Of a DNA stretch of 64,000 nt, positions 16,820 through 56,988 are shown piece by piece. A program made the position numbers and the translations under genes. The notes beneath the pieces are model-generated. The model worked only from the letters and a program-made list of their open reading frames with translations. It was not told the DNA's origin and searched no databases. Origin of the DNA: Methanopyrus sp. SNP6 (GTDB lineage Archaea; JAADCQ01; Methanopyri; Methanopyrales; Methanopyraceae). The stretch is from the NCBI RefSeq assembly GCF_002201895.1, contig NZ_CP019436.1, positions 1 to 64,000 on the forward strand, given 5' to 3'. Positions within the stretch are counted from its first letter, which is position 1, and every line of letters begins with the position of its first letter.

Positions 16820-17926
16820 GTGGTGGTCTTCACCGAGGAGGCGACCGGGGGGCTTAGTATCCCCGCCGAATCCTGTGATCCGGTTCCGGACGCCAAGCTC
16901 GTCGAGTTAAAACCGTTGGGTTATCCCGTACGGGAGCCGGGGATGAGTAACGAGGTAATCGTGGATTCGCTCGAAGCTTTCAACGCGTACGCTCGTGAGC
17001 AGTGGTTAGGAGAGGTCGTGCGGGAAGGCACGATACTCTTCGACACCGGCGTCGTTCACAGTTACGCCTTCAAGGTCGTGCGCGTCGTGCCCTCCGGGGT
17101 GGGTCGGATAACATCTTCCACTAAGTTCGTTCTTCGTACCCGATTCGATGAGGACCGCATGGAGATACCGAACGTGACGCTCGACGACGTGGTGGGGCAC
17201 GAGGAAGCCAAGCGTGCGTGCTCGCTCCTCGTCGAGTACCTCAAGAACTCGGAGGAGTTCCGGGACTGGGCCCCGAAGACCGTCCTCTTCTACGGGCCAA
17301 CGGGTACCGGTAAGACCCGTACGGCGAGAGCCGTGGCCGGGGAGGCGAAAGTTCCGCTCCTCCACATGAACGCTGCCGAGATCCTCGGCAAGTACGTAGG
17401 TGAGGCTAGCGAGAGGATCCGGAGGGCCTTCGCGCGGGCCCGTAGGGCGGCACCCTGCGTGTTCTTCCTCGACGAGATCGACGCGTTGGCGCTCGACCGA
17501 CGGTACCAGGAGCTCCGGGGCGACGTGGTGGAGAGCGTGAACGCGCTGCTCACGAACCTCGACCGGCTCAAGAACGTGGACGAGGATGTCGTGTTCATTG
17601 CGGCCACCAACCAGCCCGACATGTTGGATCCCGCGGTGAGGAACCGGTTCGAGTACGAGATCGAGTTCACACTACCGGACAAGCGCGAGCGAGAGGAGCT
17701 GGTCCGTTACTACGCGAAGAAGCTACCTATACCGCTCGAAGTCGATCCCGCGTACATCGCGGCCCGTACAGGAGGGATGTCGCACAGGGAGATCAAGGAG
17801 AGGGTGCTCAAACGCGCGCTCCTCGAGGCGTTACGTGAAGGAGCAGAGAGAATCGAACGGAAGCACGTCCAGAAGGTCCTGAATCAGGAACGGGAGCGCA
17901 GGGCGGTCCGCATATACCACAGGTAG
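16820..17926 (+). CDS. AAA+ ATPase of the PAN/Cdc48-like group
   Basis: A single-AAA-domain protein of 368 residues. After a 110-residue N-terminal region (beta-rich, unassigned) come Walker A GPTGTGKT (about 157-164), Walker B VFFLDEIDAL, sensor 1 AATNQ, the arginine finger region AVRNRFEYEIEF and a small C-terminal helical domain. Archaeal members resemble proteasome-activating ATPases but lack the coiled coil and the HbYX tail; this one ends RIYHR, so proteasome docking is not supported. It probably remodels or unfolds a protein substrate. It is divergent from thpR and convergent with selD, whose SECIS hairpin begins 25 bases past this stop. Confidence 0.8.
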   Translation: MVVFTEEATGGLSIPAESCDPVPDAKLVELKPLGYPVREPGMSNEVIVDSLEAFNAYAREQWLGEVVREGTILFDTGVVHSYAFKVVRVVPSGVGRITSSTKFVLRTRFDEDRMEIPNVTLDDVVGHEEAKRACSLLVEYLKNSEEFRDWAPKTVLFYGPTGTGKTRTARAVAGEAKVPLLHMNAAEILGKYVGEASERIRRAFARARRAAPCVFFLDEIDALALDRRYQELRGDVVESVNALLTNLDRLKNVDEDVVFIAATNQPDMLDPAVRNRFEYEIEFTLPDKREREELVRYYAKKLPIPLEVDPAYIAARTGGMSHREIKERVLKRALLEALREGAERIERKHVQKVLNQERERRAVRIYHR

Positions 17927-17950
17927 TAGCCCGCCGCGTGGCGGGCCCTT

Positions 17951-17990
17951 CCCCGCCGGGTCCCCATACCTACGGGGTTCCCCGGCGGGG
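17951..17990 (-). promoter_or_regulatory. SECIS element of selD
   Basis: On the minus strand a hairpin begins immediately after the selD stop: a 10-bp stem (CCCCGCCGGG with CCCGGCGGGG), an internal loop of GAA opposite a single A, a second stem CCCC/GGGG, and an 8-base loop. GAA facing A between two GC stems in the 3' untranslated region is the archaeal SECIS signature. It directs selenocysteine insertion at the UGA at codon 16 of selD. Confidence 0.88.
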
Positions 17991-18995
17991 TCACGGGTAA
18001 TCCTCCACTTCTTCCACGTTCCCACGGATTTTCACGCCCGAACCCTCCTCGACGCGGCCGATCCGTCGGTACCAGACATCGCGTCGCTCGAACGCATCTT
18101 CCAGGTCCTCGGCGCGTTCCTCCGGCACCGCGACCATTAGCCCCCCAGCCGTCTCCGCTGACTCACCCCGCTCCAGACCGTACCCGAGCGCCCGGGAGAG
18201 TTTCGTCGTCCCCGGGATCACCGGCAGTCGCTCGATGACTACACGGACACCGCTAGCCTCCGCCATCTCACCCGCGTGTCCCCTAAGCCCAAATCCTGTG
18301 ACGTCCGTCATCGCGTGAACCCCGACCTCGAGCGCTGCCTCCGCCGCGTCCCTAAGGGGCTCCGTCATTACCTCAACGGCCAAGTCTACGACTTCCTCCA
18401 GCTCGGAGTCCGTCAGGAACTGCCTTCGGACGTCCTCGGGCATCCTCAAGGCGGCCATCGCCGGCTGCGTACCGAGCGGTTTCGTGAGGTACAGAACGTC
18501 CCCGGGCTCGGCCCCACCGACCGTTACGTACTGCTCGGCGAACCCGGTGACGCAGCCGCCGAGGATGGGCCACGGGTTCATGATCGTATGTCCGCCGACG
18601 ACCGGAGCGTCCACTTCACGACACTGGTCCGCGAATCCCTGCAACATCTCGCGCGCGTCTTCCTCCGTGAGCTCCCTGTTGAACCCCGAGACCACCAGTA
18701 CCGAGAGCACCTCGGTGGCTCCCATCGCGAAGACGTCGTTGATGGAGTTGTTCGCGGCGATTCGTCCTTGGATGTACGGGTCCGGGTGTATCGGGGTGAA
18801 GAAGTCCACAGACTGAATCAAGTAGCCCCCGTCCACGCGGATCACCGCGGCGTCGTCGCCGACACCGACCTCCACGCGCTCGCCTTTCTCCGGTAGCTCG
18901 ACACCCTCTATCAGGTCTTCTAGGTCTCCTTGTGGAAGTTTACAGGCTCATCCGTGAAGATCCACCATCTCAACGAGGCTCTTCTTCCTGCCCAT
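17991..18995 (-). CDS. selD: Selenophosphate synthetase, a selenocysteine protein (UGA at codon 16)
   Basis: Makes selenophosphate from selenide and ATP for selenocysteine (and selenouridine) synthesis. The obvious open frame starts at 18875, but sense extends upstream through an in-frame TGA at 18948-18950. ATG 18995 (RBS GGGGGAT) gives [14 protein letters not shown], then U16, then [12 protein letters not shown]. This matches the SelD N-terminus where Cys or Sec lies in a GxxCK loop. The ATP-binding part follows ([31 protein letters not shown]). The protein is 334 residues including Sec. The archaeal SECIS hairpin lies directly after the stop codon. So SelD needs the pathway it serves, a known autogenous arrangement in some methanogens. 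Confidence 0.93.
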
Positions 18996-55617: not shown

Positions 55618-56988
55618 TCAGCGGCGTCGGGTTAGGAGCGACGCTGCGAGGGCCAGTGCCAGGACCCCTGGAGCCACTGGGAAGCGTTTCCGCTCGGTGA
55701 TACCCTTGACGCCCAGTTTCTCGGCCAACGCGAAGGCTGCCAGCGCGTACGAGGTCGCCAGCGTCTGGCTCCGGTAGCGCAGCTCCGGGCTCCAGACGCT
55801 CCGGATGAAATACCAGTAGAACGGTAACCTCAGTCGCTTGGCCCTCAGGTACTGGTCGTGCAGCACCTCAAGTGCTTTCACGATAGCCTCGTGGTTCGGG
55901 TCGATGAGACCCAACTTCGCGCACCTGAGCAGCGCGACCAGCGCGGAGGCCGTGCTACCGTAGTCCGGCGGGTACTCGGTCAGCGGGCCGCGACCCCACA
56001 TGCCGGACTCCTGGTCCCGAAGAGATAGCAGGTAGTCGATAGCTTTCTTGAGCGCGTTCTTCACGCGCTCTACTAATCCCTTCAGCTCGTCTTCCTTGCC
56101 CGCCCGCTGCACGGCTTCGAGCCAATCGCAGAGGGCGATCACAGCACGACAGTGTCCGGTCGTGTACAGCGGGTACGGGCAACCTGTATCCCTCGGGTCG
56201 GTGTAGAAGTTACCCTTCTCGTCCTGGTTGTTCAGGAACCACTCGACGACCTTCAAGACCAGATCGTCGTCCGGAGGCGTTCCGGCCGCCAGCAGCGTCC
56301 GGAAGCAGTACGATGTCACGTCCGTGATACCGTGAGCACCACCCGGACGGTCCGGGTAGTCTATCCAGCAACAGCCCTTATCCTCCTTCTGCAGGTTCGG
56401 ACCCTCACGGAGCCATCTGATCACCTTCTCTAGGAACGGCTTGTACTCGTTCCACTCGTCGTCCGGAACGATGCCCGCCTGTCTGGCCCGGAAGAACGGC
56501 AGTGCGAACTTCGCTGTCAATCCCGCGCTAGGGATTTCTTTACCGTCTTTTATTCTGACCCAGTACGCCCACTTCCCGTTGGGATCTTCCTTGCGCTGGT
56601 ACTTACCCTTCACGTTCCACATATACCGGAGGGCCTTCAGGATCATGTCCTTGTCGATGGGGTACCCGGCCTCGACGGCCGTCAGTAGGGTGTCCATGAC
56701 CACGTACGTGTGCAGGTTCGGCAGGCAGTAGTACGTGACGTCCGACTTGTACGACATCGGGAACGCGCCGACGTCTTCCGGCTTGACCTGGTACGTGGCC
56801 TTCTGTCCGCTCCTATCCTTGTACTCGATGATTTTTCCCACGTCGTCCTCAGTGTACTGCTGCCCCTTCAACCAGTCGTGAGCGGCCCTGGCGCACTCCT
56901 GGATCTGCTCGGCCGTGATGGCGGATCCCGGAGCGGTCGATAGACCAGCAGCGACGAGGGCGAGTACTAACGGCCTAAGGATTCCCAT
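55618..56988 (-). CDS. Exported alpha/alpha-toroid protein (prenyltransferase/squalene cyclase-like repeats)
   Basis: About 456 residues from ATG 56988. A signal peptide (GILRPLVLALVAAGLSTAPG) is followed by repeated helical hairpins of the terpenoid-cyclase/protein-prenyltransferase type: KGCCWIDYPDRPGGAHGITD, TGCPYPLYTTGHCRAVIAL and SGMWGRGPLTEYPPDYGST. The C-terminus is a hydrophobic helix with a basic end (VLALALAASLLTRRR), so it is probably surface-anchored. The DxDD motif of cyclases was not seen, arguing against an enzyme. The same barrel forms the cobalamin-binding domain of intrinsic factor and transcobalamin. Its place between a permease and an exported CobN homologue suggests ligand capture, which is inference. 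Confidence 0.75.
   Translation of the reverse strand: MGILRPLVLALVAAGLSTAPGSAITAEQIQECARAAHDWLKGQQYTEDDVGKIIEYKDRSGQKATYQVKPEDVGAFPMSYKSDVTYYCLPNLHTYVVMDTLLTAVEAGYPIDKDMILKALRYMWNVKGKYQRKEDPNGKWAYWVRIKDGKEIPSAGLTAKFALPFFRARQAGIVPDDEWNEYKPFLEKVIRWLREGPNLQKEDKGCCWIDYPDRPGGAHGITDVTSYCFRTLLAAGTPPDDDLVLKVVEWFLNNQDEKGNFYTDPRDTGCPYPLYTTGHCRAVIALCDWLEAVQRAGKEDELKGLVERVKNALKKAIDYLLSLRDQESGMWGRGPLTEYPPDYGSTASALVALLRCAKLGLIDPNHEAIVKALEVLHDQYLRAKRLRLPFYWYFIRSVWSPELRYRSQTLATSYALAAFALAEKLGVKGITERKRFPVAPGVLALALAASLLTRRR

Follow-up and report, generated by a model that had tools for sequence, protein, structure and literature searches.

The window, a stretch of 64,000 nucleotides at the start of the single contig (NZ_CP019436.1) of the 1,421,521-bp Methanopyrus sp. 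SNP6 genome (G000), contains a selD gene and an AAA ATPase gene that converge on two closely spaced hairpins. The features of the locus are the following, with positions given within the window.

16820..17926, plus strand: convergent AAA ATPase gene with the Pfam domains PRS2_N (PF23900), AAA and AAA_lid_PRS2_C (PF23902), outside the selenoprotein system
17928..17947, minus strand: second GC hairpin (H2), with seven Watson-Crick pairs, one G-U pair and an ACGC loop, 3 nt after the SECIS stem
17951..17990, minus strand: archaeal SECIS with a 10-bp stem, GAA / A internal loop, 4-bp upper stem and 8-nt loop
17991..17993, minus strand: terminal TGA of selD, which together with the preceding G (17994) forms GUGA at the base of the SECIS
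17991..18995, minus strand: selD coding sequence of 334 codons, ATG through terminal TGA, in which the internal TGA is taken as Sec
18948..18950, minus strand: in-frame TGA (Sec codon) at the catalytic Cys/Sec position, in the context HG-U-ACK

The selD product scored 477.6 bits against the NCBIfam SelD profile NF010705 (cut-off 291) and 253 bits against TIGR00476 (cut-off 125). Near its N-terminus it carries a catalytic Cys/Sec position followed by C-K, in the form HG-U-ACK. In alignments to selenide water dikinases of the PDB that span the in-frame TGA, the codon falls on the Cys of 5l16 (KGCSCK) and on the Thr of 3fd5 and 9hjt (KGTGCK; SPS1 chains). Translation and alignment thus confirmed the placement of the TGA at the catalytic position by the initial annotation. 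Its statement that standard ORF calling drops the first 40 residues was also correct, as the mechanical call covers only 17991-18875 and yields 294 aa from a GTG at 18875, which is 40 residues short of the 334-codon frame. The annotation had further described a frame continuing to ATG 18995 with a good ribosome site. The frame does reach that ATG; the quality of the site was overstated, as GGGTGAG and GGGGG end 18 and 11 nt upstream, respectively, and we regard it as moderate. An internal ATG at 18968 (Met10) is also located ahead of the TGA, and this Met is kept in all nine of the SelD-level matches described below. The selD start is either ATG 18995 or ATG 18968. In a second Methanopyrus genome (G001), a stop lies 7 codons upstream of the selD start, and therefore the frame has no further extension there.

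SelD was searched for in 61 genomes, consisting of the own genome, members of the same genus and more distant ones, with G000-G004 being the five Methanopyrus genomes. Some SelD match was obtained in 40 of the 61 genomes, and nine of these, the own genome among them, reached SelD level at 235.9-729.8 bits. The best match below that level scored 74.4 bits and was free of internal stops. All nine SelD-level matches, which come from four families, contain exactly one in-frame TGA at the Cys-equivalent site, in each case in the context HG-U-[AS]CK. Codon changes were compared among the ten pairs of Methanopyrus genomes. Over the 11-15 codons before the TGA, the third position was the most changed in nine pairs, with a tie in the remaining one (G002-G003), and it led in all ten pairs both in the next 24 codons and in the rest of selD. 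Constraint before the TGA is moderate, because codons with non-synonymous changes outnumber those with synonymous changes in three of the ten pairs.

A conceivable alternative is that translation starts at GTG 18875, downstream of the TGA, giving a shorter protein and leaving the upstream frame as a relic. This is exactly the 294-aa ORF that the ORF caller returns, and constraint ahead of the TGA that is only moderate would suit it. However, such a product would be without the catalytic residue and the HG-U-[AS]CK segment found in 9/9 SelD-level matches, the third position predominates on both sides of the TGA, and the conserved SECIS directly behind selD would be left unexplained. We consider a GTG 18875 start very improbable. 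The probability that the TGA is a sequencing error for a Cys codon, or that selD is a dead gene, is close to nil; nothing specific was found in favor of either, and against both stand the recurrence of the same TGA in nine genomes of four families, the codon constraint along selD and the conserved SECIS. A functional frame that runs through the TGA as a Sec codon is the reading we prefer.

All four machinery parts are present above their cut-offs in G000: tRNA-Sec (65.4 bits), SepSecS (580.6), SelB (325.7) and PSTK (329.3). Across the nine genomes with a TGA-containing SelD, tRNA-Sec (RF01852, cut-off 47) and SepSecS each exceeded the cut-off in eight and SelB in nine, while PSTK exceeded its cut-off (290.5) in four, G000 included, and scored 145-253 bits in the other five. 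Two genomes without a TGA SelD, G009 and G033, served as negatives, and none of the four parts was over its cut-off in either of them; they gave sub-threshold matches to tRNA-Sec (39.6 and 40.5 bits) and SelB, and 37.6 bits or no match for PSTK. Among 14 named control genomes, tRNA-Sec was over the cut-off in five, SelB in two, SepSecS in one (M. jannaschii) and PSTK in one. The 160-contig assembly G026 has a TGA SelD, SelB over the cut-off and a PSTK-like match of 195 bits; neither SepSecS nor tRNA-Sec was over the cut-off in its 160 contigs.

The hairpin at 17951-17990, directly behind the selD stop at 17991-17993, reads CCCCGCCGGG-GAA-CCCC-GTAGGTAT-GGGG-A-CCCGGCGGGG. With 10 bp, GAA / A, 4 bp and 8 nt, it falls within the limits given for methanogenic SECIS elements, namely a lower stem of 3-10 bp, a GAA / A internal loop, an upper stem of 3-6 bp and an apical loop of 3-19 nt (PMC11227280). 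A GAA/A-type hairpin beginning right after the stop, as had been claimed, is present and is a canonical archaeal GAA_A SECIS. The fold of the 79 nt from the stop onward had a z of -4.0, with 0/200 shuffles as stable; with 32 nt of coding sequence added, the same two hairpins formed at z = -2.1, with 6/200 shuffles as stable. All five Methanopyrus genomes have a GAA_A hairpin behind selD in which the GAA / A internal loop is invariant and the apical loop variable, and the G004 copy shows one compensatory C-G to U-A change. A GAA_A hairpin also follows selD in L007 and L008, and L009 has no clear GAA_A. In the fragmented G026 assembly, the TGA-containing selD is followed by an AAA_A-like hairpin, not GAA_A (L006 1193-1223, G026:C124). 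An AAA/A SECIS variant is described as active yet weaker in M. maripaludis (PMC11881835).

Covariation within the five selD hairpins alone is weak (1 pair; 92/500 shuffles as good). An alignment of 12 hairpins (9 distinct rows), made up of the five selD hairpins and seven found at other genes by the first covariance model (R1) and thus fitted to the structure tested on it, shows pairing in 123/123 cells and double-sided change in five pairs, with 0-1 of 500 shuffles reaching it on five measures. Pair counts exclude alignments A1, A2, A5, A6, A7 and A9, which were poor or mixed. The initial annotation had suggested a SECIS covariance-model score as a check. Rfam 15 gave nothing above the gathering threshold across the window, and a search around the hairpin returned no SECIS family at E<=10; Rfam may hold no archaeal SECIS model.

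R1 is a GC-rich model built from the five selD hairpins only, and in G000-G004 and G009 it was used to score 150 of 527-1441 first-look candidates per genome. In G000 its matches included a hairpin of 36.5 bits (E 6.5e-4) and another of 29.5 bits (E 0.018), each immediately behind a TGA frame in a selenoprotein-like context. No match at E<=1 came from the two genomes without Sec (in G009, among the 150 scored candidates), nor, GC-rich as it is, did the model find a SECIS at E<=1 in any of four Sec genomes outside the genus. R1 also yields chance-level matches near E 0.6-0.8. One identical sequence, matched at E 0.58-0.82 in four Methanopyrus genomes, was rejected as a SECIS, and we take it to resemble 16S rRNA. 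Within the window, a pattern match CCGAACC..GGAGG at 56382-56400 lies inside a 465-aa ORF, is without a lower stem and was dismissed as chance (26/100 shuffles gave at least one).

A second model, R2, was searched in the five Methanopyrus genomes only, with 150 first-look candidates scored per genome. In G000 it gave at least nine places at E<=10 and at least five at E < 0.01, the latter being at selD and at fruA-like, vhuD-like, vhuU-like and fdhA-like genes, names that were inferred from the residues around the TGA alone. At the fdhA-like gene of G000 and G001, the SECIS ends ~90 nt before the TGA frame opens (L087: 1536 to 1626; L086: 1536 to 1623) and therefore lies ahead of the gene; in G002 and G003 the TGA frame is not closed between SECIS and gene. 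The fdhA SECIS of M. kandleri AV19 is placed in the 5'-UTR (PMC11881835). In predicted folds, the fdhA-like SECIS and the second hairpin beside it are enclosed by long complementary flanks (L071, G000 near 1408394; L072, G001; L055, G003). The M. kandleri fdhA SECIS is described as having no flanking complementary sequences, by which pairing with the coding region is meant (PMC11881835). In G000 (L052, G000:854597) and G001 (L053, G001:589779), the vhuD-like gene contains two in-frame TGAs separated by 51 codons, and in G004 (L078, G004:C1:15778) the site of the second TGA is a Cys codon, a Sec/Cys exchange within the genus. An AT-containing inverted repeat is located behind the vhuD-like SECIS.

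These other genes bear on a further alternative, that the hairpins at 17928-17990 form a transcription terminator between convergent genes and not a SECIS. Both do lie between the converging selD and AAA stops. A terminator nonetheless fits poorly with a GAA / A internal loop that is invariant in five of five genomes, with matching hairpins at other TGA-containing genes, one of them upstream of the fdhA-like start where a terminator would be unexpected, and with the lack of a long T run behind the hairpins. We regard this explanation as extremely improbable and treat the hairpin at 17951-17990 as a SECIS. The initial annotation had remarked on the nearby end of the convergent AAA gene, and the proximity is real, as the AAA stop ends at 17926; no sign was found that it is relevant.

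In 5/5 Methanopyrus genomes, the selD stop codon supplies the UGA of the motif at the SECIS base. Ahead of this stop, G000 and G001 have a G and G002-G004 an A (AUGA in 3/5), the two bases behind the SECIS stem are AA, GA, GA, GA and GC in G000-G004, respectively, and the full motif is present in four of the five. The Methanopyrus selD SECIS has been described as carrying a GUGA_[G/A]A motif at its base (PMC11227280, 2024), and the [A/G]UGA found here is slightly wider than that wording. In two genomes the fruA-like gene also has its stop at the motif; in the other three the stop precedes the hairpin by 17-23 nt, and AUGA is found within 1 nt of the SECIS stem in all five. The motif therefore seems to be kept for itself, doubling as a stop by convenience. 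The TAG stop of L007 likewise abuts the SECIS, and in L008 the SECIS lies further downstream. It had been pointed out that the selD hairpin abuts the stop without a spacer. This is so; the oddity it implied is not, because the UGA stop is part of a described SECIS base motif, and a hairpin set against the stop is thus ordinary. The UGA_GA quartet of an eSECIS with a helix on both sides was not seen. GUGA_AA flanks the G000 stem, and with 32 nt of upstream sequence the centroid fold had no helix below the motif, while the minimum-energy fold had only a weak helix that does not close on the motif.

Taken together, selD is almost certainly an ordinary archaeal selenoprotein gene that encodes a SelD with Sec at its catalytic position under the direction of a GAA_A SECIS. 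The claim that SelD is a selenoprotein here is supported at the sequence level by profile scores, the frame and its conserved TGA, the machinery genes and a SECIS fold with covariation. Homology suggests that Sec is inserted, that the enzyme is active and that the terminal UGA is not recoded. Ribosomes would start at ATG 18995 (or ATG 18968) and reach the UGA after 15 codons (or 6), where SelB and Sec-tRNA-Sec would insert selenocysteine under the control of the GAA_A SECIS, which starts 957 nt further downstream, immediately behind the stop. This would yield a selenophosphate synthetase with a catalytic Sec that produces the selenium donor used in Sec synthesis, including that for its own Sec, and the second UGA, at the SECIS base, would terminate translation.

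The one loose end is the companion hairpin H2 behind the SECIS. In the five selD loci, 39/39 counted cells are paired and three pairs are changed on both sides, each in G004 only (2/500 shuffles as good). A GC hairpin with a loop ending in ACGC (ACGT once) occurs behind the SECIS at selD in 5/5 genomes, at the fruA-like gene in 5/5 and at 4/4 fdhA-like places found, with no fdhA-like place found in G004. The other two of this type in G000 are at G000:C1:1148978-1148993 (-) and G000:C1:1408372-1408387 (-). The hairpin stands behind the gene at selD and the fruA-like gene, and ahead of it at the fdhA-like gene. It was rejected as a feature of every SECIS, with none behind the vhuD-like (0/3 seen) or vhuU-like (0/4 seen) elements, and at two fwuB-like places the GC hairpins carry different loops. 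At selD, H2 is 1 nt from the end of the AAA ATPase gene (17926).

A pattern based on selD and the fruA-like gene, with the fdhA-like place not used, matched (at no more than 2 mismatches) 4 distinct places in G000 and 12 in G001, of which 3 in each genome were beside a SECIS as judged by R2 coordinates. Under a strict rule of 6 perfect G/C pairs and a loop N0-2ACGC, 2 of 3 places in G000 and 1 of 2 in G001 were beside a SECIS. Genome-wide, H2 patterns are barely enriched over the reversed control, with 7 vs 5 in G000 and 14 vs 10 in G001, or 30 vs 23 and 70 vs 46 for a looser pattern. What stands out is the position of these hairpins beside SECIS elements, not their genome-wide frequency. H2 was also rejected as a general element of the window, as none of its 14 perfect Watson-Crick hairpins of at least 8 bp has an ACGC loop (H2 itself, at 7 bp, is outside this list). 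With G-U pairs allowed, nine other window hairpins of 6-9 pairs have ACGC in or near the loop, and such hairpins are therefore not unique.

As a candidate role, we suggest that H2 may accompany the SECIS and not act as a terminator. No mention of a second hairpin was found in the archaeal SECIS literature as searched, which comprised parts of PMC11227280, PMC11881835, PMC2933860 and PMC1242214. Some Methanopyrus genes could carry a composite recoding unit made up of the GAA_A SECIS, the ACGC-loop hairpin and the base UGA, in which the hairpin would stabilize the SECIS at very high temperature or be read by an archaeal SECIS-binding factor. In that case, the selD stop, a UGA at 0 nt from the SECIS, would be a naturally occurring example of a UGA that has to avoid being recoded. 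We put this forward tentatively and think it rather unlikely. If H2 truly belongs to the recoding unit, it would provide a handle on which factor recognizes the archaeal SECIS, a question left open in PMC11881835.

A Sec-containing SelD is already known for the genus Methanopyrus. Selenophosphate synthetase appears in a list of the Sec proteins of archaea (PMC2933860), the SECIS elements of Methanopyrus selD genes have been treated, with an [A/G]UGA motif at the base (PMC11227280), and the GAA_A SECIS has been defined in vivo, with that of M. maripaludis sps the most effective tested (PMC11881835). With Sec-SelD of archaea in print (PMC2933860, PMC11227280), the circular dependence of a SelD that would make its own selenium donor, singled out as notable by the initial annotation, is no surprise. 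The selD case confirms a known rule, and the mechanical ORF caller truncates SelD here. Compared with the kink-turn-like GAA_A SECIS of methanogenic Euryarchaeota, the selD element has the same GAA / A internal loop between two stems, but its stems are longer and all-GC (10 and 4 bp), a UGA stop lies at its base and an ACGC-loop hairpin follows directly behind. With the eSECIS-like element of Asgard archaea/Lokiarchaeia, which has an AUGA_GA core over UGA stops, it shares the [A/G]UGA base overlapping a stop (PMC11227280), whereas it has the GAA_A bulge and no eukaryote-type helix below the motif. According to PMC11227280, these methanogens showed no complete eSECIS-like structure. From the Sec-SelD/SPS of Methanococcales, Methanopyrus and Asgard archaea, which have the same catalytic Sec near the N-terminus, a SECIS outside the coding sequence and the same self-dependence, the gene described here shows no difference of weight, and it is their ortholog in another Methanopyrus genome.
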